From positions 1 to 64,000 of the forward strand of contig JAJRZA010000032.1 of NCBI GenBank assembly GCA_024275485.1: a DNA stretch of 64,000 bases, written 5' to 3'. This document shows positions 29,436 through 57,719 of this stretch, in pieces. Each line of letters starts with the position of its first letter. Position 1 is the first letter of the stretch. Both the position numbers and the translations under genes were made by a program. A model generated the notes under the pieces. The model made no database searches. It was not told the DNA's origin and saw only the letters and a program-made list of their open reading frames with translations. The stretch comes from Candidatus Krumholzibacteriota bacterium. Its GTDB lineage: Bacteria; Krumholzibacteriota; Krumholzibacteriia; LZORAL124-64-63.

Positions 29436-29800
29436 GATTTTGTCCTCTAATTAGAAATCGGCAGCGGCCGGCTGCCATCGGTTTTTCCACAGAATGATTG
29501 TCCTCGCCGGTTCGGCCGAGTCCTATTTTCGTCAGGCTGATACAGGATGAAGTCATACAAGATTATTTAATAGTATATGAAAATACCATGTGCTGCCACC
29601 CAACCCGGACGTATCATCCCCATGACTTTCCTCGTCACCGCCGTGGTGGTGGTCAATATCGTGATGGCATTTCATTGCCTTCAGAAGTCATTTTCCCCAA
29701 AATAATCATGATTTATGATATGGATTGTTCGGTCGCCCGTTTGACACGATCAACGAGATTTATCCAAATACAGGAAGAATCAAACTTGGGGGTTTCAACC
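29436..29800. other. Intergenic region upstream of the RCC1-repeat gene
   Basis: This 365-base stretch between divergent genes has no convincing gene. It is AT-rich around 29560-29590 and 29695-29725. A perfect TTGACA (29741-29746) is the best -35 for the rightward gene, but the hexamers 15-18 bases later are poor -10 matches. Confidence 0.4.
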
Positions 29801-31501
29801 ATGACCATCATAGGAAAAACTATTCGCCACGTTACTTTCCTTTTGCTCTGTGTCTACATACTGGTTGCTGCCGCCGATACCATAGCCCAGATATCGGACA
29901 CCCCTGGCCCGACCCTTCTGTGGGGCGGGTGGAGGTCTGGTGGAGATGAACTCGACCAGTTTGTTTCCATAGAGGCAGGGACCAGGCACGTTTTGGGGAT
30001 CCGCCACGACGGCGGCGCCATGGGTTGGGGTGACAACTCTTTCGGCCAATGCGATGTTCCGGAACCCAACCAGGATTTTGTTTCCCTGGCAGCGGGCTCG
30101 CAGTTCTCGTTGGGACTGAAAGCTGATGGCAGTGTGGTTGCCTGGGGCGACAACCGACGCGGGCAGGGCGAGATCCCGGAGCCCAACACCGGTTTTATTG
30201 CCCTCTCGGTGGGCCAAGGGCACATCCTGGGGTTGAAGGCCGACAACACTGTCGTAGCTTGGGGCGAAAACGGGATTGGTCAGTGCGATGTGCCCGAACC
30301 CAATGAAGGTTTTGTGGAACTGAGCGCCGGCTATACCTGCAGCTATGGCCGTCGTGCCGATGGGGTCATCGAAATTTGGGGACGGAGTCTGACTGTTCCC
30401 ACTCCCAACGAAGATTTTGTAATTGTCGAAGGAACCCATCAATCCTTTGTCGGCCTCACCAGTGAAGGCCGTTTGGTCCCCTGGGGATTGAGCCCCTATC
30501 TCGGCTCCAATCTTCCAGAACCACCCACGGGTTTCAAAGACTTGGCAGTAGGCTATTACCACAGCCTTGCTTTGAAAGAGGATGGCTCCATTGTTGGCTG
30601 GGGCAGCAACGACGCCGGCCAATTGGACGCACCCTTGCCCAATATCGATTACATCGACTTGGATGTTACCATCAATAGAAGCCTGGCAGTGAGAGCCGAC
30701 GGCTCGCTGCATGGCTGGGGCTTTGATACGTACGGATTTTGGGAAATGCCATCGCCCAACACGGGTTTTGTTTCGGTTGCCTGCGCGGCCTGGAGCGGAT
30801 TGGCTCTCAAGGAAGACGGTTCCATCTCCATGATCCCGCCTGTTGATTCTCTTCCGGTACCCAATGGTGATTTCATCGCCGTGGCCGCCGGGGGTGATCA
30901 GTATCACGTTGAGTTTTGCGACTTTTTCATGGGATTAAGAATCGATGGCAGCATTGCAGTCTGGGGCGATAATACCTACGGTCAATGGGATGTGCCACAG
31001 CCCAACTCGGGGTTTGTTGCCATGGCAGCAGGATACCATCACGCCATAGGCCTGAAAGCCGATGGATCGGTGGTTACCTGGGGGAATGTGACGGATCTCC
31101 CTGACGACAATAACGGCTTTGCGGGGGTCGGCGCCGGCGGTGAGGTGTGCATGGGGATTATGCCCCATGGCTTCGTTTCCGCGGTGGAACCGGTTGTTGA
31201 TGATTTCTCAACGCCGCCGGCCAGGAACTTCGCCCTGCTGCAAAACCAACCGAACCCATTCAACCCGGCCACTAACATTCGTTACCGGTTGTCCCGGCAA
31301 GGGCCTGTGCGTGTGCAAATCTTTAATGTTCGGGGCCATCTTGTCCGGACTCTTGTGGATGACAATCAAGATGAGGGATGGCACGAAATCATGTGGGATG
31401 GTCGGTCTGATCAACGCCGCAATCTGCCTTCCGGAACCTATCTGTACCAGCTGGAATCAGGGCAGAGGATTGAATCTCGGCAAATGACTTTGGTTCGATG
31501 A
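29801..31501 (+). CDS. Secreted RCC1-repeat beta-propeller protein with sorting domain
   Basis: 566 residues from the ATG at 29801 (GGGGG 8 nt upstream); the frame is open a further 101 codons but without sensible content. A signal peptide is followed by about ten repeats of roughly 45-50 residues with the core GLKADGSVVAWGDN...GQ.DVPEPN.GF, i.e. RCC1-like blades, some degenerate. A FlgD-like domain (QPNPFNPATNIRY) ends it. The ligand is unknown; a surface-exposed propeller for binding proteins or glycans is plausible. Confidence 0.85.
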   Translation: MTIIGKTIRHVTFLLLCVYILVAAADTIAQISDTPGPTLLWGGWRSGGDELDQFVSIEAGTRHVLGIRHDGGAMGWGDNSFGQCDVPEPNQDFVSLAAGSQFSLGLKADGSVVAWGDNRRGQGEIPEPNTGFIALSVGQGHILGLKADNTVVAWGENGIGQCDVPEPNEGFVELSAGYTCSYGRRADGVIEIWGRSLTVPTPNEDFVIVEGTHQSFVGLTSEGRLVPWGLSPYLGSNLPEPPTGFKDLAVGYYHSLALKEDGSIVGWGSNDAGQLDAPLPNIDYIDLDVTINRSLAVRADGSLHGWGFDTYGFWEMPSPNTGFVSVACAAWSGLALKEDGSISMIPPVDSLPVPNGDFIAVAAGGDQYHVEFCDFFMGLRIDGSIAVWGDNTYGQWDVPQPNSGFVAMAAGYHHAIGLKADGSVVTWGNVTDLPDDNNGFAGVGAGGEVCMGIMPHGFVSAVEPVVDDFSTPPARNFALLQNQPNPFNPATNIRYRLSRQGPVRVQIFNVRGHLVRTLVDDNQDEGWHEIMWDGRSDQRRNLPSGTYLYQLESGQRIESRQMTLVR

Positions 31502-33749: not shown

Positions 33750-34787
33750 GTGGATCGAAACGCAGCCCGGGATTTTTTTCGGAATGTGGTGATCATGGCA
33801 CCCATGGCCACCGGCGGGAACCTGCCATATCGCCGACTTTGCCGTCAATTTGGTGCCGTGCGCACCTGCAGTGAGATGGTGATGGCCCACAAACTGGTCA
33901 AGGGCGGCGAACGCCCTCTCATTCGTCACCACGAAAGTGAAACGGATTTTGGGGTTCAGCTGGCGGGCAAGCGTGAGGAAATCATGGCCGAGGCAGCGGT
34001 GATCGCCGTGGAGCATGGAGCCAAATTCATCGATCTCAACTTCGGCTGCCCCATCGATTTGATTGTTCGCTACGGTTCGGGCGCAGCCATGCTGAAACGG
34101 CCTGCACGGTTGGCTGCCATCGTCTCGGCGGTGCGTTCGGTAGTGGATGTTCCCTTGTCAGTGAAAATCCGCCTGGGTTTTTCGAACGACAAAATCAACT
34201 GTGTCAAAATTGCCGGGTTGGTGGAAGATGCGGGGGCCGATGCGGTCACGGTCCATGGACGGACGCGGGCTCAGCGTTATCGTTCGAGTGCCCGCTGGGA
34301 GCCGATTGACGAGGTTGCCCGGGCTGTAAACATTCCTGTCATCGGCAACGGTGATCTGCTGACTATCTGGGATTTGCGGCGTCGTCGATCTGAAACTGCC
34401 GTCTCATCCTTCCTGGTGGCGCGCGGCGCGTTGATCAAACCCTGGATTTTCAAGGAACTGGCCGACGATGTCCCCTGGGATCCAAATCCGGCTGAGCGTT
34501 GGACGGTGTTGCGATGGTATGTTGATTTCGGCCGGGAGCATTTTGGGGACGATGAAAAAGGCCTTGGCCGGGTGCGTCGCTTTTTTCTCTGGCACTGGGA
34601 TTTTTGGCATCGGCATCGCCCCTTGACCGAAGAACAATTCTTGCAACAGCACCCTGAATCATTGATCCAGGCTAGGGTTGATGATGTCGAGGGCGGGGGC
34701 GATTTGGCACTTTTTGCCAGCAAGGATCCTGCCGATCACGAGGTGATTTGGCGGCGTGTCCTTGACAGGGATTATCCCACCGGGTAG
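33750..34787 (+). CDS. tRNA-dihydrouridine synthase
   Basis: FMN enzyme that reduces uridine in tRNA D-loops. TIM-barrel with the N-terminal MAPMATGGNLPYRRLC, the catalytic cysteine in NFGCPIDLIVRYGSGAAML (first part only of the family's NxGCP block), VKIRLG, HGRTRAQRY and GNGDL. The IDLI spacing after GCP resembles the Dus3-type branch. The region around WDLRRRRSETAVSS is divergent from the usual GCDGVMIGR. Start is a GTG at 33750, tightly following the rubrerythrin-like gene. Confidence 0.88.
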   Translation: MDRNAARDFFRNVVIMAPMATGGNLPYRRLCRQFGAVRTCSEMVMAHKLVKGGERPLIRHHESETDFGVQLAGKREEIMAEAAVIAVEHGAKFIDLNFGCPIDLIVRYGSGAAMLKRPARLAAIVSAVRSVVDVPLSVKIRLGFSNDKINCVKIAGLVEDAGADAVTVHGRTRAQRYRSSARWEPIDEVARAVNIPVIGNGDLLTIWDLRRRRSETAVSSFLVARGALIKPWIFKELADDVPWDPNPAERWTVLRWYVDFGREHFGDDEKGLGRVRRFFLWHWDFWHRHRPLTEEQFLQQHPESLIQARVDDVEGGGDLALFASKDPADHEVIWRRVLDRDYPTG

Positions 34788-34837
34788 AGTCCGCCTGGTC
34801 AGGAAGACGGAATCTTCCTGCTCAACAATTTGATTGC

Positions 34838-35021
34838 GGCCTGTGAACCAGCGGAAGTCCGGTTAAAGTCCGGCGCGGCCCCGCCACTGTAAACGGTGAC
34901 GAAACCTGCATTTGAGCCACTGATCCCACCTCGCCAGAGGTGACCGACCAAGGATGGACGGGCGGATCGGGAAGGCGCAGGGAGTAGATAGACCCGTAAG
35001 CCAGGAGACCGGTTCAAGGCC
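34838..35021 (+). ncRNA. Cobalamin (AdoCbl-type) riboswitch
   Basis: The conserved core is present in order: a CCGG/CCGG helix (34858-34874 region), GCGGCCCCGCCACTGTAAAC with the GCCACTG box at 34883-34889, and the B12 box CCAGGAGACC at 35001-35010. The closing P1 helix pairs GGCCtgTGAACC (34838-34849) with GGTTCAaGGCC (35011-35021). It lies immediately upstream of the BtuB-like receptor gene and would repress it when cobalamin is abundant. Confidence 0.93.
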
Positions 35022-35028
35022 TGCCACC

Positions 35029-35045
35029 ACCTTCGTGGGCGAGGT
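35029..35045 (+). promoter_or_regulatory. Likely Shine-Dalgarno sequestering hairpin of the riboswitch
   Basis: ACCTTCG (35029-35035) can pair with CGAGGT (35040-35045) across a TGGG loop, with one bulged T. The right arm is the ribosome-binding site of the ATG at 35046, so the riboswitch probably controls translation rather than termination; no T-run follows. Confidence 0.5.
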
Positions 35046-37109
35046 ATGGCTTTGGCTCTCCATCCCGGCAGGGGAATTCCAGGAACGGGTTTCTTTCAAA
35101 AGAATGCGGCTGTTTTGCCGCTGGTTTTGTTGTGCCTGATGGTTTGGACTGGGCCAGCCCGTGCCGTGGATGCCGGCACCATGGTATACACCGTCAGCGA
35201 TACCGTAGTGGTCCGTGCCAGGGCGATGGGTGATGCGATCACTCCCTCGGCCGCCGGTATGGTGACGATTATTGATCTGGAAGATGAATCCGGCAGTAAG
35301 GATTTGGCTGAAATTCTAGGACGCACAGCAGGTTTTCAGGTGCGTCACCATGGTGGATTGGGTTTTGCCGGGGTGCCTTCGTTGCGTGGGTCTTCGGCGG
35401 CCCAAATTCGAATTTTTATTGATGGCCTGCCCTTGAATGATGCTCAAAGTGGAACGGTTGATTTGTCCCTGTTGCCGGTAGAGCGGTTCTCCCGTGCTGA
35501 AATACATCGGGGGGTGGTGCCGGGTGGTTTGGGTGGCATGGGTGGTGCTGGCGCCGTGAATTTGATCACCCGCTCACAGGCCGATGGCCTGGATGCAGGT
35601 GTTTTTGCCGGTGGTTTTGGCAGCCTTGGCGGTCGTATGACTTGGGGTGCGTCCTCGAACGAGGGAGATCGATCCATCCTGCTGATGGGACACGGTCGCC
35701 GGGCCGACAACGACTACCAGTATCTGGACAACAACCAGACTTTCCTGGAAACCGGTGATGATACTGTTCGTGTACGCCAAAATGCCTGGTTTGAAGAGTG
35801 GGGTCTTTGGGGCAGCAGTCGGATGGAGTGTGGACCGCTGGATATTCGTGCGGTGGCTGGTTGGTTTCGCAAGGATGGTGGCCGGCCCGGGCCGATCAAC
35901 TATCCTTCCCCATCGGCAACCGTGCGTCTTGATCGTCTGGATGGTCAGGTGCAAATATCGTTGCCCCCGCAACTGACCCTGGAATTTTCCACCGCCAAGG
36001 TGGAACAATTCCTTTTTGATCCGAATAATGAAATTGATGATGGGTTTGGCGGGGATATTCACTCGCTCAACAATGATTTGACGGGCCGCATCTCCTGGAC
36101 GCCCAACCTCTGGAAAAGTCATTCATCCGGTTCATTTATTTCCCTGGTAAACTTGACTGCAGGGGTGGAGCGCCGCAGTCAATGGTACAATCAGTGGTAT
36201 GGTGCCGATGAAGATCCGCGCCGCAATCGCCACACCGATTCTGCTTTTGCGGCTTTGCCCATGGTCCTTTTCGACAACAACCTGCAACTGACGCCGGCCT
36301 GGCGTTTCCAACGAAACACCGATGATTTCCCACCCCTGCCCGCCCTACCCTGGTTGCCTGAGGACGAAGATGTGAAAAATATTCGTCACGATGTTTCCCC
36401 ATCCGTGGGTCTGGTCTGGGAAGTGCAACCCGATACCTGGTTTGTGGAAGCTCATGCGGGGCAATCCGTACGCATTCCTACCTGGGTGGAGCTGTTTGGA
36501 CATCGCGGTGGAATTGACGGCAACCGTGAGCTCTCACCCGAGGAAATCACCGCCCTGGATGTGGCGCTGGTCTGGAAGCCTTCATCCGGTTTTTCATCCC
36601 GCCTTTCGGCCTTTCAGGCTCAAACCGACGACGCCATAATTTTCGTACAAAACAGCCCTGGAACCAGTCACGCCCAAAATATCGGCGCGACCCGCAACCG
36701 TGGCTTGGAATGGGAAGGACAGTTTTTGCTGCCTCACAAATTGCATTTGCAGGCCAATGCCACCTGGCAAGATCCAGTGGATCTTGGAGAGATACCTCAT
36801 TTGAACGGCAACAGTCTGCCATACCTCAGCGATGTGGAAATCGATGCCCGCCTGACCAGACCGGTGGGCTTCTGGCGTCTCTGGGTGGAACTCTCCCATG
36901 AAAGTTCCAAATACCGGGATCGTGCAAATACCGAACTGATCAAAGCCCCTGCCCGAACCCGGTGGAATTTGGGTGTGACCCGATTGATTGGCAATAGCCT
37001 CGAAATTTCCGCAGAAGTGATAAATCTGACCGACGACCGTACTTACGATGTCGTGCAATTTCCCCTACCCGGTAGAACATGGCAAGTGGCCATGCGCGTT
37101 AACCGGTGA
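35046..37109 (+). CDS. btuB: TonB-dependent receptor, BtuB-like (vitamin B12)
   Basis: 687 residues: a signal region (hydrophobic to about residue 39), a TonB-box-like DTVVVRAR (about residues 51-58), a plug domain (DLAEILGRTAGFQVRHHGG, LRGSSAAQIRIFIDGLPLND, EIHRGVVPGG), then a 22-stranded-type barrel ending in VNR. Cobalamin specificity is inferred from the riboswitch just upstream. The ATG at 35046 is very close to its GAGG; no better in-frame start is visible. Co-transcribed with the propeller gene 14 nt downstream. Confidence 0.88.
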   Translation: MALALHPGRGIPGTGFFQKNAAVLPLVLLCLMVWTGPARAVDAGTMVYTVSDTVVVRARAMGDAITPSAAGMVTIIDLEDESGSKDLAEILGRTAGFQVRHHGGLGFAGVPSLRGSSAAQIRIFIDGLPLNDAQSGTVDLSLLPVERFSRAEIHRGVVPGGLGGMGGAGAVNLITRSQADGLDAGVFAGGFGSLGGRMTWGASSNEGDRSILLMGHGRRADNDYQYLDNNQTFLETGDDTVRVRQNAWFEEWGLWGSSRMECGPLDIRAVAGWFRKDGGRPGPINYPSPSATVRLDRLDGQVQISLPPQLTLEFSTAKVEQFLFDPNNEIDDGFGGDIHSLNNDLTGRISWTPNLWKSHSSGSFISLVNLTAGVERRSQWYNQWYGADEDPRRNRHTDSAFAALPMVLFDNNLQLTPAWRFQRNTDDFPPLPALPWLPEDEDVKNIRHDVSPSVGLVWEVQPDTWFVEAHAGQSVRIPTWVELFGHRGGIDGNRELSPEEITALDVALVWKPSSGFSSRLSAFQAQTDDAIIFVQNSPGTSHAQNIGATRNRGLEWEGQFLLPHKLHLQANATWQDPVDLGEIPHLNGNSLPYLSDVEIDARLTRPVGFWRLWVELSHESSKYRDRANTELIKAPARTRWNLGVTRLIGNSLEISAEVINLTDDRTYDVVQFPLPGRTWQVAMRVNR

Positions 37110-37123
37110 ACAATGGAGTCGAA

Positions 37124-38500
37124 ATGAAAAACACCGCCCTGGTTCTCCTGATCACATTGATGATTCTACCGGTGACTGCCGTGGCCGAATTCGGTCCCTG
37201 GATTCTCACCACAGACTATGGCTTGTTCGGTCGCATCGAGTCGTTCAATACCGAAGCCCCCTGGAGTGCTTCAGGTGAGCTTGCCGTGATTCCCGGTGAT
37301 GCAGTCGGCAGGCATTTTGATGGTTTGGTCTACATTGTCGGGCGTGGGGGATCGAACCTGATCCAAATCTACAACCCCTCTGAGGATTTTGCGCTGGTGC
37401 GTGAATTTTCCATCGGGGCCGGTCGCAATCCCCAGGATATTGCTTTCGATGTTCAGGGTCGCGCTTTTGTGAGTTGTTACGATGAAGCAGTCTTGCTGCA
37501 GGTCGATACCGAAGCCGGTGTAGTAGTGCAAACCTTTGATACATCGTCTTTTGCCGATTCCGATGGTTTGCCTGAAACCGCCTGGCTGAGGGTGCATCAA
37601 AACCGTCTTTACATCACCAATCAAAAACTGGATCGCGGAAACTGGTACTCGCCCACTGGCCCGGGCCAGCTTTTGGTATTGGACCTTGATACCTTGCAAT
37701 GGCTGGATCCCATCGACCTGGTGGGTGCCAACCCCTACACAAAAATCCGTCTCGACGACCAGGGGCAACTGCTGGTCGGTTGTGTAGGATACTGGGCCCT
37801 GTTGGACGGTGGCCTCGAAACGGTTGATCCGGTTACTGGACAAAGTGAGGGCTATCTGATAACCGAAGAGGAGTTGGGTGGTGATGTGGTCAATTTCGTA
37901 CCAACCGCTGGGGACCAATTGCATGTCCTGATCAGCAGCCCCTCATTTGTCACCAGCATTGTCCGGGTTGATTTGAACACCGGCAGCATTGATTCCATCG
38001 TCACCAGCAGTGGTTACGATCTGGCGGACCTGGCCTCAGATGGTGGTTTCCTGCTATTCGTGGCTGACCGGGTTGTTGGTGCCGCAGGACTCCGGGTCTT
38101 CGACACGGTCACCGGAGCTGAATTGACCAGTGGAGTGGTGGGCACGGGTCTGCCTCCCTTTCAGTTCGTGATGCCAACCGGGAGTGATCTTTCGACCACA
38201 CCTGAAGTCGGCTTGTTGGCGGGCACCCTCAATCTGGGACAGCCTTTTCCCAACCCCTGCAATCCGTCTGCGGAGTTGGTCATCGAAGACGTAGCCGATC
38301 GTTCGGTTTCCGTTTCGGTGTTTGATTTGCGAGGACGTCGGGTGCTGAAAACAACCATGAGCACCGACTCTTCCGGCCGTGCCTCATTTCGATTTGATGG
38401 TCGCGACGCTGTCGGGGCTGCCCTGCCAGCGGGTTTGTACCGGGTCGTAGCCCAAAGCCGCGGTGGGTTTGCAGCCCGGTCCCTGACTCTGGTCAAATAG
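37124..38500 (+). CDS. Secreted YncE-like beta-propeller with sorting domain (possible BtuG analogue)
   Basis: 458 residues with a signal peptide (1-22), about six to seven propeller blades (for example VYIVGRGGSNLIQIY, AFVSCYDEAVLLQVD, LYITNQKL) and a FlgD-like C-terminus (FPNPCNPSAELVI). GGAG lies 6 nt before the ATG, and the gene is the second gene of the riboswitch operon. In Bacteroides, the surface propeller BtuG captures B12 for BtuB; the shared genetic setting and fold suggest the same job here, with C-terminal sorting instead of a lipid anchor. This is inference. Confidence 0.75.
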   Translation: MKNTALVLLITLMILPVTAVAEFGPWILTTDYGLFGRIESFNTEAPWSASGELAVIPGDAVGRHFDGLVYIVGRGGSNLIQIYNPSEDFALVREFSIGAGRNPQDIAFDVQGRAFVSCYDEAVLLQVDTEAGVVVQTFDTSSFADSDGLPETAWLRVHQNRLYITNQKLDRGNWYSPTGPGQLLVLDLDTLQWLDPIDLVGANPYTKIRLDDQGQLLVGCVGYWALLDGGLETVDPVTGQSEGYLITEEELGGDVVNFVPTAGDQLHVLISSPSFVTSIVRVDLNTGSIDSIVTSSGYDLADLASDGGFLLFVADRVVGAAGLRVFDTVTGAELTSGVVGTGLPPFQFVMPTGSDLSTTPEVGLLAGTLNLGQPFPNPCNPSAELVIEDVADRSVSVSVFDLRGRRVLKTTMSTDSSGRASFRFDGRDAVGAALPAGLYRVVAQSRGGFAARSLTLVK

Positions 38501-39996: not shown

Positions 39997-40581
39997 ATGT
40001 CCCGCATCTACACTCGAACCGGCGACCAGGGCGAAACCAGCCTGGGCGACGGCAGCCGGGTTGCCAAAAACTCGCCTCGAGTCGGACTTTATGGTGACAT
40101 TGATGAGCTCAACAGTTTGTTGGGAATGGCCGTAGCCTTGCATCGCCAGGATTCCAGTTTGTCCAATTTTGCCCAGGTGAATATGCCGGAAGTGCTGGAA
40201 GAAATACAAAGCAGGTTGTTCGACCTGGGCACTGTGCTATCCGATCCTGTCAAATCGGCCACCGAAATACCATTTCCCACCAAGGGATTGGAAGACCTGA
40301 TCGACACCATGGAAAAGGACTTGCCGCCTTTGAATAACTTTATTCTGCCGGGCGGGCATCCCGCCTGTGCCCAATTGCACGTGGCCCGCTCAACAACTCG
40401 ACGGGTGGAACGCCGGGCAGTGGCCATGGCCGCCACCAAGACCGAACCGGTGCCGACGGATGCCATCATCTGGCTCAACCGCCTCAGCGATTTTCTTTTC
40501 GTTGCTGCTCGTGCGGTTAATGCCGCTGCCGGCCGCCCGGATGTGCCCTGGATTTCCGAGAACAAACCCGAGGAAGGATAA
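39997..40581 (+). CDS. Cob(I)alamin adenosyltransferase, PduO-type
   Basis: 194 residues. Makes adenosylcobalamin from cob(I)alamin and ATP. The family N-terminus RIYTRTGDQGETSLGDGSRV, the LYGDIDELNSLLG block and the ATP/corrinoid residues in RRVERRAVAM and LNRLSDFLFVAAR are all present. The ATG at 39997 follows AAGGAG at 8 nt. It extends the B12 theme of the preceding riboswitch operon: imported B12 would be converted to the cofactor form. Confidence 0.93.
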   Translation: MSRIYTRTGDQGETSLGDGSRVAKNSPRVGLYGDIDELNSLLGMAVALHRQDSSLSNFAQVNMPEVLEEIQSRLFDLGTVLSDPVKSATEIPFPTKGLEDLIDTMEKDLPPLNNFILPGGHPACAQLHVARSTTRRVERRAVAMAATKTEPVPTDAIIWLNRLSDFLFVAARAVNAAAGRPDVPWISENKPEEG

Positions 40582-51427: not shown

Positions 51428-54400
51428 ATGTTTTGTAAATTGATCCCTCGATACAGCACTCCATTTTTTGCTGCTCTAGTCGTGATGGTGACTTTCCTTG
51501 TGATCGCCGACCCCGGGTTTGCCGAACGAAAACGGAAGGAATGCCTGGATTGCCATGATGAGATGATTCCGCTGATTGACCGTCAGTTTGTGCATGAACC
51601 GTTCAAGGAAAAAAAGTGCATGGATTGTCACAAGCGCCATGGCTTCTCCCAGAATCTGGTGCTCAAGAGTTCCCCTCCTGAACTTTGCGCCGACTGCCAC
51701 ACCGATCAGATGCCTGCCGCTGATGTGGCCGTTCCTCATGCACCCGTCACTGAAGGCTACTGTACGGGCTGCCATGACCCCCACTCATCCAACTATCCTG
51801 CCCTGGTCAGAGGAAGCCGTCCGGGAGGCGTATGCCTGCCTTGTCACATCGAGGTAAAAGACGATCTTGATGGTCCCCAGGGTCATAAACCCTTCATGGA
51901 TGGCGATTGCAGTGCCTGCCACGATGCCCACGGCAGCGACAATTCCGTCATGCTGGCCGTACCCCAAACAGATGTTTGCCTGGGTTGTCATGCCAAGATC
52001 GATGTTGCGGACCATTTCGGTGTGGCTACAAACGATCAGTCCTGCACCGATTGTCACGATGCTCACCTGGCCACGAAGGACTCGGTATTGCGCAGTGACG
52101 CTCACCCGCCCTTTGCCGAGGGAAGTTGCTCCGACTGTCATGCCGAGGGAACGGGTGATGTTGCCGGCGACGTTCTCGAATCAGGGCCCTCACTTTGTTT
52201 TGAATGCCATGACGATATTGAAGAGCAGTCCGGACTGGCCTTTGCTCATGAGCCGGTTACCGAAGATTGTCAGAATTGCCACGATCCCCATCAATCAAGC
52301 TTTTCCACCTTGTTAATGGCCGAGCAAGGCGAAGTTTGCCTTGAGTGCCATGACGACCCGACTGAAGAAGAGGGAATCCAGAGCGTGCACCAGCCGTTCG
52401 AAAATGGTGAATGCTCCTCCTGCCATGATCCCCATGGCAGCGACCGGGAACTGTTGCTATCGGCTGAGGGTGACGGGCTGTGCGCTGCCTGCCATCAAGA
52501 GCTGATGACCAAGGCGGAGCAGGCGGAAACCTCACACCCCGCCCTGGACGAGGGCTGTATTTCCTGTCATCAACCACATGCCTCCAACGAACGTAGATTA
52601 TTGGCTGGCCAGCAGAGAACCCTTTGCCGGGAATGCCACGAAGAAACAGTAGTGGCCCCTGTTGGAGTTCTGCAGCATGTGCCTTTCCAGGCCGGGGCCT
52701 GCAACGAGTGCCACAATCCTCACGGGTCCAATCAATCGAATATGTTGGTGGACATGGCACCTGCGGATAATTGTGTGCGTTGCCATACCTCGCTGGGAAA
52801 GAGTTTCAAGGCGGGCAAGGGGCACGACCCCTTTGTTGAGGGAGATTGCGGTATTTGCCACGCGGCTCACTTCTCGGCGGAACCTGCGGCCTTGTTGGTT
52901 GCTCCCATCCAGGCATTGTGTTCCGATTGCCATGATGATCTGGATGGGGAGCTTTCCCGTTCCCACCTTCACACACCCGTTAGCCGTGGTGACTGCACTG
53001 CCTGCCACAATCCTCATGACAGCGAGAGAGGCTCGCTTCTGATTGCCTCGGGTTCCCAGTTGTGTCTGGGCTGTCATCTGGAAATAGCCGAGATCACCCA
53101 GCTGGCTGTGGTGCATGAACCGGCAGGCGATGGCGACTACCGGGTTTGCCATGAAGTTCATGGGTCGGACAACCCCATGGGGCTTACCGCCCCGGTGGCG
53201 GAACTCTGCGCCGAGTGCCACGATGTGGACACCGAAGAGTTCTTCACCAGTCACGGCGGTCTGGCCAACGGAAACTCCCGCTGCACTGCCTGTCACAACC
53301 CCCATGGTTCCACCGACCCCATGCTGTTGAACCGCATGGTCCATTCACCTTTTGAAGACAAGGACTGTGCTTCCTGCCACGACGACCATACTCCTGAGCA
53401 GCTTGCCGTTGAAACGGCCAGCCTTTGCAGCGACTGCCATGATCAGCCGGATGAGTTTGCCGAGAAAAGTCAAATCCATTCACCGGTTGCCGAGGGCGAC
53501 TGCACCGCATGCCACGACCCCCACACCGCTCGCAAGGATCTACTTCTGCGTTCTGCTGTGCCGGAGCTGTGCGCCAAGTGCCATGATGAGATCGTTTATC
53601 CTGCTGACGGGATCAACCAGCATCGGCCGGTGGAACAGGGTCTGTGTCTCGATTGCCACCAATCCCATGCCGGTGATCACAAGTCGCTTCTAAAGGATAC
53701 AGGTGACCATCTGTGTCTCGGCTGTCATGAGGCTCTCAAGCAGAGGCTCGACACTGGAGCCCCGCATGCCCCGGTGGCTGATGGCGATTGCACCGTTTGT
53801 CACAATGGTCATAATTCAGCCCAGGAGGCCCTGCTCAACCAGCCGGTGAGTTTGCTTTGCGCCGAGTGCCACGATGTGGAAGGTCTGGAAATCACAACGG
53901 CTCATTCCGGTTTCGAGGTCAAGGAAGCCAATTGCGTAATCTGTCATGATCCTCATGTTTCAGTGGATGACGGCGGAAAATTCCTGCGACCGGTCAGGCA
54001 CGAACCGTTTGCCGATGGCGACTGCTCATCGTGCCATGAGTCCGGGAGCAATCTGGTTTCACAACCTGCGCCTCAACTCTGTCTGGAATGCCACGACGAA
54101 TTCTCGGAAATTCTGGAGACGAAGGGAGTTCATGCGGCTCTTAAAAGCGAAAATTCCTGCCTTTCCTGCCATTCTCCCCATGCGGGCTTCGAGGGTTTGG
54201 TCAATCGCTCTTCAGAGAAGGAGACCTGCATGCGCTGCCATGATCGCCAGGAATTTGAATGGGAATACCGGCACGAACCCATGGAAGAGGCCTGCAGCAA
54301 TTGTCATAACCCACATACGGGAGAAAAACCACTTCTGTTGGATCTCGACATCATGGACCTTTGTCTGGAATGTCATGAGATCCATCCCCACCCCATGGGC

Positions 54401-54550
54401 GGAGAGTACAAGGATCCCCGGACTGACGGTCCACTGACCTGTGTCAGTTGCCACTCACCCCACTCTTCGGATATAAAACAGCTGTTGACCCATGAAAAGG
54501 GGCGGGCTCTGTGCGTTCAGTGCCATGTGGGCGCCATGGGGGCTCATTGA
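51428..54550 (+). CDS. 41-haem c-type cytochrome built from doubled CxxCH modules
   Basis: 1040 residues with a signal peptide (1-31). I count 41 CxxCH motifs and one variant, YRVCH (53138-53152). They come as about 21 repeats of 45-50 residues, each with the pattern H.PF..GDC..CHDPHGS....LL......LC..CH, i.e. the doubled-CxxCH family. No membrane helix or sorting domain is seen after the signal, so it is periplasmic or exposed on the surface through partners. End-to-end such a chain could span the periplasm or extend outside. ATG follows the preceding stop directly. Confidence 0.92.
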   Translation: MFCKLIPRYSTPFFAALVVMVTFLVIADPGFAERKRKECLDCHDEMIPLIDRQFVHEPFKEKKCMDCHKRHGFSQNLVLKSSPPELCADCHTDQMPAADVAVPHAPVTEGYCTGCHDPHSSNYPALVRGSRPGGVCLPCHIEVKDDLDGPQGHKPFMDGDCSACHDAHGSDNSVMLAVPQTDVCLGCHAKIDVADHFGVATNDQSCTDCHDAHLATKDSVLRSDAHPPFAEGSCSDCHAEGTGDVAGDVLESGPSLCFECHDDIEEQSGLAFAHEPVTEDCQNCHDPHQSSFSTLLMAEQGEVCLECHDDPTEEEGIQSVHQPFENGECSSCHDPHGSDRELLLSAEGDGLCAACHQELMTKAEQAETSHPALDEGCISCHQPHASNERRLLAGQQRTLCRECHEETVVAPVGVLQHVPFQAGACNECHNPHGSNQSNMLVDMAPADNCVRCHTSLGKSFKAGKGHDPFVEGDCGICHAAHFSAEPAALLVAPIQALCSDCHDDLDGELSRSHLHTPVSRGDCTACHNPHDSERGSLLIASGSQLCLGCHLEIAEITQLAVVHEPAGDGDYRVCHEVHGSDNPMGLTAPVAELCAECHDVDTEEFFTSHGGLANGNSRCTACHNPHGSTDPMLLNRMVHSPFEDKDCASCHDDHTPEQLAVETASLCSDCHDQPDEFAEKSQIHSPVAEGDCTACHDPHTARKDLLLRSAVPELCAKCHDEIVYPADGINQHRPVEQGLCLDCHQSHAGDHKSLLKDTGDHLCLGCHEALKQRLDTGAPHAPVADGDCTVCHNGHNSAQEALLNQPVSLLCAECHDVEGLEITTAHSGFEVKEANCVICHDPHVSVDDGGKFLRPVRHEPFADGDCSSCHESGSNLVSQPAPQLCLECHDEFSEILETKGVHAALKSENSCLSCHSPHAGFEGLVNRSSEKETCMRCHDRQEFEWEYRHEPMEEACSNCHNPHTGEKPLLLDLDIMDLCLECHEIHPHPMGGEYKDPRTDGPLTCVSCHSPHSSDIKQLLTHEKGRALCVQCHVGAMGAH

Positions 54551-54617: not shown

Positions 54618-54779
54618 TACCATGTCAGATGCGTGATAAAAATGATACTCAAAGTCAAAAAATAAACAAATTCTGTTATTTTTCTTGTAGGTTGTTGCAA
54701 CAATATGCTATAATCCTAGCAACAACCTTGGATATCCCAAGATTTGTATGCTGCATTCCCCAATCAGCAAGGAAATCCC

Positions 54780-57719
54780 ATGCGAACCACCACCTTTTTT
54801 ATCCTGGTAGTTTCATGTCTATTTGTCCTGGGATCCGATTCCTACGCCACGGTGGATCATCGGGATTTGGTCGAAGGGGATTGTATTTCCTGTCATGCGG
54901 GTCATGTGCGGGCTTTCTCCGGTCAAGCCGGTGAAAAGGCTGCCAACCACCAGGGACTTTCTTGCCTGACTTGCCACGATTTCCATTCTAATCCTGCCAA
55001 TCTGAGTTTTGTACCCGAACAAATCGAGACGCCAAACAGTGGTACCAGATCAGTTGTTTTCACTGCCCGCACTGGTCCGGACTCCTTTGCCGACGGCGAT
55101 GCCGTCTACGATGGTGTGTGTGAAGTGTGCCATACCATGACGGGTTATCATCGCAATGATGGATCCGTCAGCCAGGCCCACAATACCGCAACCGATTGCA
55201 CTGCCTGCCATCCTCATGAAGAAGGATTCTCACCAGTGGGCGGTAGTTGTCTCGACTGCCATTCCATTCCGCGTGGTTCCGGGGGATATCGTCGCCAAAT
55301 TGTTGAAAACAGCGGGGACGGCGGCGGTGATTTCGTACTGACGAGTCATCATGTCACTGATGGTACCCAGAACGAGTTGGTGACCGCAGGCGACTGTATC
55401 GTTTGCCACGATCAGGGCAACCACATGTCCTATGGAGACGGTGTGTCGGTTTACTTGCGCGATCCCAACGGCGGAGCTTCGATTGTCTACGACGGCACTC
55501 CCCAGTCTGTTGAAACCTGGTGTCTGGCTTGTCACGACGGCACCCACACCAGTCCTTTCAGCGACGGTCAGCCTGCCCCTGATCTGTCGACCTGGGATGG
55601 ATCGGCCCACGGAGCGACTTCAGCCACCTGTCTCGATTGCCACGACAATGGCCATGGCAGCGGTAACCTGCACATGGTGGCTACCACCATCGCCACACCC
55701 AACAGCGGCAATCTGCCCGTGAACTTCTCGTCACTAACCGGACCCGGTTCCTTTGCCGATGGCGACGCTGTCTATGATGGCGTTTGTGAGGTATGCCACA
55801 CCGGCACTGCTTTCCATCGAAACGATCCATCCGGCGACCACAGCCATTTTGTTGCCCAGGATTGTACAGCCTGCCATGGGCATGATGTTGGTTTCCAGCC
55901 CACTGCCGGCTCCTGCACCCAGTGCCATAATTCGGAACAGGGCCCAGGCGGATACCGGCGCCAAGTTGTTTCAGGGGTTGGCGGAAACGGCGAGTTCGTC
56001 CTGCTGAGTCACCACGTTTCAGACGGTACCCAAAACCAGATAGTCCAGGACTCGGACTGTGTGGTTTGTCATGACCAGACCAATCACATGACCTACAGTG
56101 ATGGTGTTTCGGTGTTGCTGGTCGATCTTTCCACAGGAAGTCCCGTACTCTATAACGGCACACCTGCAACCTTGGAACCATTTTGTTTGGGTTGCCACGA
56201 TGGTACCCAAACGGCACCCTTCTCCGATGGCAATCCGGCTCCCGACATGTCGGGATGGAACGGGGCCAGCCACAGCCCGGCGGGTTCCACCTGCGCCCAA
56301 TGCCACACCAACGGGCATGGAACCGACAACCTGGCTCTCATCGGAACCCAGATAGAGACACCCAACAATGGTGTGCTTCCGGTAGTGTTCACCTCCTGGA
56401 CCGGCCCCAACAGCATGGCCGATGGCGATGGTATCTACGACGGTATCTGCGAAGTTTGCCACACGGCCACGACTTACCATCGTAACAACGCTTCCGGCAA
56501 CCATGGGCACAACTCAGGCAACGACTGTCGGGCGTGCCATGATCACAATACCGGGTTTTCACCCCAGGCCGGTTCTTGCCTCGCTTGCCACAACACAACC
56601 CAGGGCTCCGGAGGATACCGCCGCCAGGTTGTTGAGAACAACAATGACGGAGGTGGTGATTTCGTGCGCGTCAGCCACCATGTCAGCGATGGCTCGACCA
56701 CCGAGATCGTCACCGAGGGCGACTGTGTGGTTTGCCACAACCAGTCCCAACACATGACCTTCACCGATGGCGTGTCCGTACTTCTGGAAGACCCCGCTGG
56801 TGGTCCAACCATCACCTACGATGGCTCAACCGGATCGATCACCGGTTTCTGTGCTGCCTGCCACGACGGCACTCCGGCCTCACCGCCATTTTCGGACGGC
56901 AATACTCCACCCAACGTTCTGGCAACCTGGCCATCATCAGCCCATGGTACCGCCAACAATGCACCTTGTGGAGAGTGCCACACCAATGGACACGGTGGAG
57001 ACAACCAGCAGATGTTGACCGCTCGCTACGATCGCCAAGACTATCTGAATTATAGCAGTGCCCGCTACGCCCTGTGCTGGCAGTGCCACAATGAAAATAC
57101 CATCGTCTTTGGCAACAATTCCTTCGAGGATCTGCACGACAAGCACGTTGTCGGTGAGGACTCGGCCTGTGTGTTGTGCCATCAGCCCCATGGGCCCTTC
57201 GATGATGGTGAAGCCGGAAATATTGATTTCAGCTACGGTCTGGACAACGGCTTCGACATTCAACTGATCGACGGCTACACGCGCTCCACCGCGTTCTGGA
57301 CCTCGGGCAATACGGGCTTCTGCTACATAGCTTGTCATGGCAAGGACCATACTCCCAAGGATTATCGTCGGGATCTGGTCCTTCAGGCGAGGGACTTGTC
57401 CGGGCAAGTGGAGGGCGTTGGCCCCTTCGTTTCTGCCAGGAGTTATCCTGTTCCCAGCCGTGGCCCGGTCACCATTGTCTTGCAGCAGGGAGAAAAGGCA
57501 GACAAGGCCCAGGTTAGTGAGTGGGTGGAGGTTACCATCTACGACATCTCCGGTCGCCGTATTCGTGACCTCTCCTTCGACCATGGAGGGGCGGATGATG
57601 CCACACTCTTCTGGGACGGTTTGGATGCCGCGGGACACAGCGTTCAATCTGGTGTTTACTTCTGTCGGGTTTCCACCCGTGAGTCAAGTCGAACCTTGAA
57701 AATGGTGATTGTTCGTTGA
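54780..57719 (+). CDS. 22/23-haem cytochrome with three large repeats and a C-terminal sorting domain
   Basis: 979 residues with a signal peptide (1-23), 22 CxxCH motifs and one CX3CH (CYIACH, 57321-57338). Three tandem copies of a 222-residue unit (period about 666 bp, starting near 55020, 55686 and 56350) each hold six haems and shared blocks such as DGVCEVCHT, GGYRRQVV and HHVSDGT. The last 80 residues are FlgD-like (VEVTIYDISGRRIRDL, SGVYFCRV, MVIVR), the same C-terminal domain as on the exported enzymes here, so this cytochrome is probably on the cell surface. AAGGAA precedes the ATG at 54780. Confidence 0.9.
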   Translation: MRTTTFFILVVSCLFVLGSDSYATVDHRDLVEGDCISCHAGHVRAFSGQAGEKAANHQGLSCLTCHDFHSNPANLSFVPEQIETPNSGTRSVVFTARTGPDSFADGDAVYDGVCEVCHTMTGYHRNDGSVSQAHNTATDCTACHPHEEGFSPVGGSCLDCHSIPRGSGGYRRQIVENSGDGGGDFVLTSHHVTDGTQNELVTAGDCIVCHDQGNHMSYGDGVSVYLRDPNGGASIVYDGTPQSVETWCLACHDGTHTSPFSDGQPAPDLSTWDGSAHGATSATCLDCHDNGHGSGNLHMVATTIATPNSGNLPVNFSSLTGPGSFADGDAVYDGVCEVCHTGTAFHRNDPSGDHSHFVAQDCTACHGHDVGFQPTAGSCTQCHNSEQGPGGYRRQVVSGVGGNGEFVLLSHHVSDGTQNQIVQDSDCVVCHDQTNHMTYSDGVSVLLVDLSTGSPVLYNGTPATLEPFCLGCHDGTQTAPFSDGNPAPDMSGWNGASHSPAGSTCAQCHTNGHGTDNLALIGTQIETPNNGVLPVVFTSWTGPNSMADGDGIYDGICEVCHTATTYHRNNASGNHGHNSGNDCRACHDHNTGFSPQAGSCLACHNTTQGSGGYRRQVVENNNDGGGDFVRVSHHVSDGSTTEIVTEGDCVVCHNQSQHMTFTDGVSVLLEDPAGGPTITYDGSTGSITGFCAACHDGTPASPPFSDGNTPPNVLATWPSSAHGTANNAPCGECHTNGHGGDNQQMLTARYDRQDYLNYSSARYALCWQCHNENTIVFGNNSFEDLHDKHVVGEDSACVLCHQPHGPFDDGEAGNIDFSYGLDNGFDIQLIDGYTRSTAFWTSGNTGFCYIACHGKDHTPKDYRRDLVLQARDLSGQVEGVGPFVSARSYPVPSRGPVTIVLQQGEKADKAQVSEWVEVTIYDISGRRIRDLSFDHGGADDATLFWDGLDAAGHSVQSGVYFCRVSTRESSRTLKMVIVR
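55020..57015 (+). repeat. Three tandem 666-bp in-frame repeats
   Basis: Units start near 55020, 55686 and 56350. Each encodes the TP.N.G...V.FT..TGP.S.ADGD..YDG.CEVCHT opening and ends with a GHG.....N block. Divergence is moderate, indicating old duplications kept in frame. Confidence 0.8.

Follow-up and report, generated by a model that had tools for sequence, protein, structure and literature searches.

Does the vitamin B12 capture system of Bacteroides, in which an outer-membrane receptor (BtuB) is paired with a secreted beta-propeller (BtuG), have a counterpart outside the Bacteroidota? The question is raised by a locus of Candidatus Krumholzibacteriia, found in a metagenome-assembled genome of 3.98 Mb (106 contigs, 96% complete). 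Within the window (the 64,000-nucleotide stretch of contig JAJRZA010000032.1 analysed here), a cobalamin riboswitch precedes a gene for a TonB-dependent receptor, and 14 bases after the receptor stop codon begins a gene for a secreted propeller protein of 458 residues (37124-38500, + strand, ATG at 37124). We regard it as probable that these elements form a vitamin-B12-repressed outer-membrane capture operon, in which a BtuB-like receptor would receive cobamides from a BtuG-like lid exported by the type IX secretion system (T9SS). The original prediction had placed the three elements side by side, and the sequence, Rfam and domain matches bear out both this arrangement and the 14-base gap; of its coordinates, only the start at 34838 needs correction, as it falls 10 bases inside the riboswitch.

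The riboswitch scores above the RF00174 gathering threshold (31.5 bits) and is the only one of its kind in the genome. Because the start codon of the receptor lies 15 bases 3' of the aptamer end, the riboswitch likely acts at the level of translation. A special hairpin was sought between the riboswitch and this start codon, but the junction is not predicted to fold any better than shuffled sequences. The promoter candidate upstream matches 10 of 12 consensus positions and is weak, since 1.9 such sites are expected by chance in the region.

Kinship of the propeller and the receptor

The AlphaFold2 model of the propeller protein (built from 17 sequences; predicted local distance difference test score, pLDDT, 81.7) consists of a beta-propeller and a C-terminal beta domain. 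Searched with Foldseek, it returns BtuG at ranks 1-6. With VIA-align, BtuG fills the top 11 rows (Z 29.4-30.8; about 301 residues aligned at 2.9 Å, with 14-17% identity), followed by an archaeal YVTN propeller as the first other match (Z 28.2) and by unrelated propellers at about 27. Profile comparisons point the same way. A family profile built from 52 propellers matches BtuG chains in the PDB at about 1e-6 and E. coli YncE at 1e-3, with the repeat-rich 1l0q outscoring the BtuG chains (5e-17), and its comparison with a three-sequence BtuG alignment gives a probability of 98% (E 9e-14), extending end to end in global mode. Fold and profile thus independently place the propeller nearest to BtuG, in keeping with the original proposal of a BtuG analogue, for which a comparison of the predicted structure with BtuG had been suggested as a check.

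The receptor was likewise proposed to be BtuB-like, and its nearest fold is that of BtuB1 in the BtuB1G1 complex (Z 36.9, 583 residues, 2.5 Å), although the model reaches a pLDDT of only 70.5. Ranks 2-9 are all BtuB, headed by the E. coli protein (Z 33.9), and the first match of another kind is FecA (Z 32.9). A profile search with the receptor returns PqqU as well as BtuB proteins of the B. thetaiotaomicron and of the E. coli type. The BtuB model TIGR01779 gives the window receptor 100.6 bits, below its NCBIfam cut-off of 599.7; since BtuB2 of a Bacteroides locus (L134) scores merely 50.3 bits, this model does not cover the branch to which the window receptor belongs.

Conservation of the pair across the class and beyond

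The original prediction had suggested a search for the same pair in related genomes. In a sample of 80 Krumholzibacteriia genomes (G000-G079), a propeller homologue (E below 1e-28) is present in 64, amounting to 65 copies. For 53 of these copies, a cobalamin riboswitch precedes the propeller gene on the same strand at a distance of 2.07-2.46 kb, a spacing that leaves room for exactly one receptor gene, and in the loci that we fetched a receptor is found there. Ten of the other 12 copies are at contig ends, leaving two true exceptions: one genome with a truncated receptor (G056) and the second of two tandem propeller copies in another (G058). The proposal was to be regarded as refuted if other riboswitch-BtuB operons in the group lacked the propeller, which is not what we observed.

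In BtuB2, extracellular loop 2 (EL2; Ser202-Tyr239) holds the linker of BtuG (PMC10404256). The EL2 region measures 43-44 residues in every propeller-paired class receptor and 23 residues in four unpaired class members; the loop of E. coli BtuB has 36 residues, and length alone is therefore no proof of pairing. The length and aromatic residue of EL8 were also considered as a mark of pairing and set aside, because the approximately three extra residues of the paired class receptors are matched by some unpaired receptors elsewhere.

The unpaired class receptors (G059, G065, G070, G071) group with E. coli BtuB in a quick tree (Shimodaira-Hasegawa-like approximate likelihood ratio test support 98 and 94), and the one that was scanned with TIGR01779 scores 283 bits, compared with 101 for the window receptor. 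Both results indicate that class members lacking the propeller have a different kind of receptor. In this tree the propeller-paired label requires 4 changes, against 13 in shuffles; one common origin for all propeller-paired receptors is neither demonstrated nor rejected (approximately unbiased test, p-AU 0.43). Loci from two class genera (L058-L061; g33 and g38) have a riboswitch but no propeller, and their BtuB is of the E. coli type; in these genera the whole receptor-propeller pair has apparently been replaced.

Related pairs also occur outside the class. One such propeller has a riboswitch 4.5 kb upstream on the same strand. In a member of another phylum, represented by this one genome (G093), the order is riboswitch, btuF-like, btuC-like (FecCD 6e-67), btuD-like, receptor and propeller. 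The propeller homologue of this locus (L057 3802-9357, - strand) is a lipoprotein with a lipobox-like cysteine and lacks the C-terminal domain. Judged from sequence, it differs from the class propellers by a switch of predicted anchoring inside one family, lipid versus T9SS tail. Weaker receptor-propeller pairs stand in the same order behind riboswitches in three further genomes (G080, G082, G088) and, within the Bacteroidota, in Persicobacter. At another locus (L068 3282-4541, - strand), a riboswitch-linked paired propeller ends in a weak dockerin-like stretch and not in a sorting domain. That the whole class, along with the related pairs elsewhere, uses a BtuG-like lid delivered by the T9SS in place of a lipid anchor, and that in the window's genus the lid feeds an inner-membrane importer other than BtuCDF, is a wider proposal, which we put forward only tentatively.

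Probable export of the propeller and proposed hand-over of cobamides

In Bacteroides, BtuG is lipid-anchored and carries a surface export signal (PMC6143338). The window propeller has a plain signal peptide without a lipobox, as do its homologues in the class. As the original prediction had recognized, its C-terminus resembles FlgD (FlgD_ig, 5.4e-9); among 27 sampled class propellers, all match FlgD_ig, 17 the T9SS type A tail (E under 0.001) and 16 Por_Secre_tail. Two T9SS components were identified in the genome, the translocon SprA (481 bits) and, above its cut-off of 420, the sortase PorU (456 bits), along with dozens of PorU-tail-like matches. With SprA and PorU encoded, the tail plausibly functions as a T9SS signal that takes the place of the lipid anchor of BtuG, and the earlier suggestion of a different way to the surface gains support. 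We therefore infer, with good support from the encoded machinery, that the propeller is delivered by the T9SS, and its predicted location is the cell surface.

The operon could then work as follows. At low cellular B12, the riboswitch would permit synthesis of the receptor and the propeller, a direction of control that we take from the riboswitch family. The signal peptide would take the propeller across the inner membrane; SprA would then pass it through the outer membrane, with the FlgD-like domain as the signal, and PorU may cleave the tail and anchor the protein. Given the homology to BtuG and the conserved pairing, the surface propeller would form a lid on the receptor, bind cobamides in its central cavity and pass them on, and the receptor would import them by TonB drive. 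Capture and hand-over would thus resemble the pedal-bin model (PMC10404256).

It is also conceivable, although unlikely, that the propeller is periplasmic, or a free B12 scavenger in the medium, and forms no lid; this arrangement partly overlaps with the one that we prefer. The plain signal peptide would suit it, as would the fact that T9SS cargo can be released and that the tail merely resembles type A signals, while the presence of SprA and PorU, the dozens of PorU-tail-like matches and the long EL2 loop, which tracks with the propeller, favor a lid at the surface.

Several observations weigh against the capture operon that we prefer. Propeller folds are common, the Z margins of 1-3 are modest, and identity to BtuG is about 15%. 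Pfam's BtuG family, PF16819 (DUF5074), which is matched by BtuG2 (1.9e-20) and by the Persicobacter homologue, is matched neither by the window propeller nor by the 27 sampled class propellers. The propeller tail scores 22.6 bits against TIGR04183 (T9SS type A), just under the cut-off of 23, and conservation does not extend to the EL8 aromatic residue through which BtuB3 touches B12. Neither BtuC nor BtuF was found in the 96% complete genome (G000; L110). The strong negative charge of the propeller (-29), considered as a BtuG-like trait, was discarded as non-specific in this genome, where other secreted proteins are equally acidic per residue. Single-sequence searches of the PDB with the propeller and with the homologue from L057 gave no BtuG match.

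By analogy with BtuG, the propeller would be expected to bind B12. It might instead be a secreted accessory of the receptor that does not bind the vitamin, serving as a structural lid, protector or assembly partner. Such a role would fit the conserved pairing, and the BtuG2 pocket residues (Trp194, Trp272, Tyr316) could not be mapped onto the propeller, as alignments disagree at 15% identity. We nevertheless consider a non-binding accessory rather improbable, given that the nearest structural and profile relatives bind B12 and that one homologue lies within a full btuFCDB run (G093). Import by the pair of some other ligand, either pyrroloquinoline quinone (PQQ; compare E. coli YncD/YncE) or a siderophore (compare XusB), with the riboswitch there for another reason, is very improbable: the receptor profile does match PqqU/YncD, and the Foldseek matches of the propeller include XusB, a lipoprotein that binds ferrichrome, but a riboswitch precedes most class copies of the pair, the sole riboswitch of this genome is here, and BtuG and BtuB outrank YncE and PqqU.

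Vitamin B12 supply, neighboring genes and wider meaning

Four B12-binding-domain matches were found in the genome and CbiC was not found; together these make B12 scavenging probable. The organism probably uses B12 without being able to build the corrin ring, and imported cobamide would be its main supply. The inner-membrane step is likely carried out by an importer other than BtuCDF, because BtuC and BtuF are missing despite the presence of the riboswitch, the receptor and the B12-binding-domain proteins, and because BtuC-type permeases are patchy across the class: they are strong in many genomes of groups f3, f5 and f7 and in genera g3 and g6 (our labels), and absent from the searched members of the window's genus. 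A weak FecCD-like match was rejected as a candidate BtuC, since, judged from sequence, it is a ZnuB-type gene in a zinc-type ATP-binding cassette set.

Coordinates of the operon and of adjacent features in the window are listed in Table 1. The original prediction had added an adenosyltransferase gene 1.5 kb on; its presence and distance are correct, although the link to the operon was overstated, since a gene on the opposite strand intervenes and places the adenosyltransferase outside the riboswitch operon. It is a functionally related but separate transcription unit. The intervening gene product has no Pfam or NCBIfam match.

Table 1. Features of the riboswitch-receptor-propeller locus and its surroundings (positions in the window)
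Feature	Position	Strand	Evidence
Sigma-70-like promoter candidate TTGACA-17-TAGAGT, 38 bases 5' of riboswitch	34762..34790	+	Consensus scan
Cobalamin riboswitch aptamer	34828..35031	+	Rfam RF00174, 80.2 bits, E 3.7e-18, full length
BtuB-like TonB-dependent receptor, 687 residues	35046..37109	+	Plug domain 8e-13; BtuB profile and structure matches; EL2 loop comparison
14-base gap with GGAG-type ribosome-binding site	37110..37123	+	Sequence
Signal peptide of propeller, about residues 1-21, no lipobox cysteine	37124..37186	+	Sequence; class homologues likewise plain
BtuG-like beta-propeller domain, residues 22-352	37187..38179	+	AlphaFold2 model, structure search, profile search
C-terminal FlgD_ig / T9SS type A-like sorting domain, about residues 367-458	38222..38497	+	Domain scans
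Secreted protein, 401 residues	38531..39736	-	Open reading frame between propeller and adenosyltransferase genes
PduO-type cob(I)yrinic acid a,c-diamide adenosyltransferase	39997..40581	+	PF01923 5.8e-55, TIGR00636 4e-50

Elsewhere in the window, an RCC1-repeat protein of 667 residues (29498-31501) has a C-terminal sorting domain like that of the propeller. Two multihaem cytochromes lie downstream: one of 1040 residues (51428-54550) with 41 CXXCH motifs and an MtrC/MtrF-like domain, and one of 991 residues (54744-57719) with 22 CXXCH motifs, MtrC/MtrF-like domains and a C-terminal FlgD/Por_Secre tail. The latter is possibly a T9SS-exported extracellular cytochrome.

Among known systems, E. coli YncE and YncD (PqqU) likewise combine a propeller with a TonB-dependent receptor; unlike the window pair, they are PQQ-related, they score below BtuG and BtuB here, and we know of no cobalamin riboswitch for them. 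E. coli BtuB shares the receptor fold and plug, but works alone, and its type replaces the pair in propeller-less class members. The B. thetaiotaomicron systems BtuB1G1, BtuB2G2 and BtuB3G3 (PMC10404256) share the cobalamin riboswitch, the adjacent receptor and secreted propeller, and the extended EL2, and they provide the best fold and profile matches for both window partners. They differ in the approximately 15% identity of the propeller, in a lipoprotein with a surface export signal as opposed to a plain signal peptide and T9SS-like tail, and in their BtuF, BtuC, BtuH and BtuJ neighbors, which are absent at the window locus. DUF4465 (BtuJ) proteins are also secreted B12-binding accessories near B12 transporters, but belong to another domain family, and none was seen in the window operon; as a parallel, a 2026 paper reports such B12-binding surface proteins from eight bacterial clades (PMC13398666). 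With T9SS type A cargo, the propeller shares the C-terminal FlgD/Por_Secre-like beta domain, in a genome that encodes SprA and PorU.

BtuG was found only in Bacteroidetes, within the BLAST limits of that eLife study (PMC6143338), and TonB import aided by a lipoprotein was suggested to be general in Bacteroides (PMC10404256). In a non-exhaustive search of the open-access literature, we found no description of a BtuG-type T9SS cargo and no report on B12 uptake in Krumholzibacteria or on riboswitch-linked propellers outside the Bacteroidetes. The locus probably represents a BtuBG-like capture system outside the Bacteroidota with T9SS delivery. That a whole class of an uncultured phylum carries a riboswitch-controlled version suggests that B12 capture with the aid of a lid is old or widely shared, and that the lid could be delivered by a different secretion route. 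Because lid-less relatives use an E. coli-type BtuB, the receptor features that serve lid hand-over may be readable from sequence, and the missing BtuCDF points to an unrecognized inner-membrane B12 importer.

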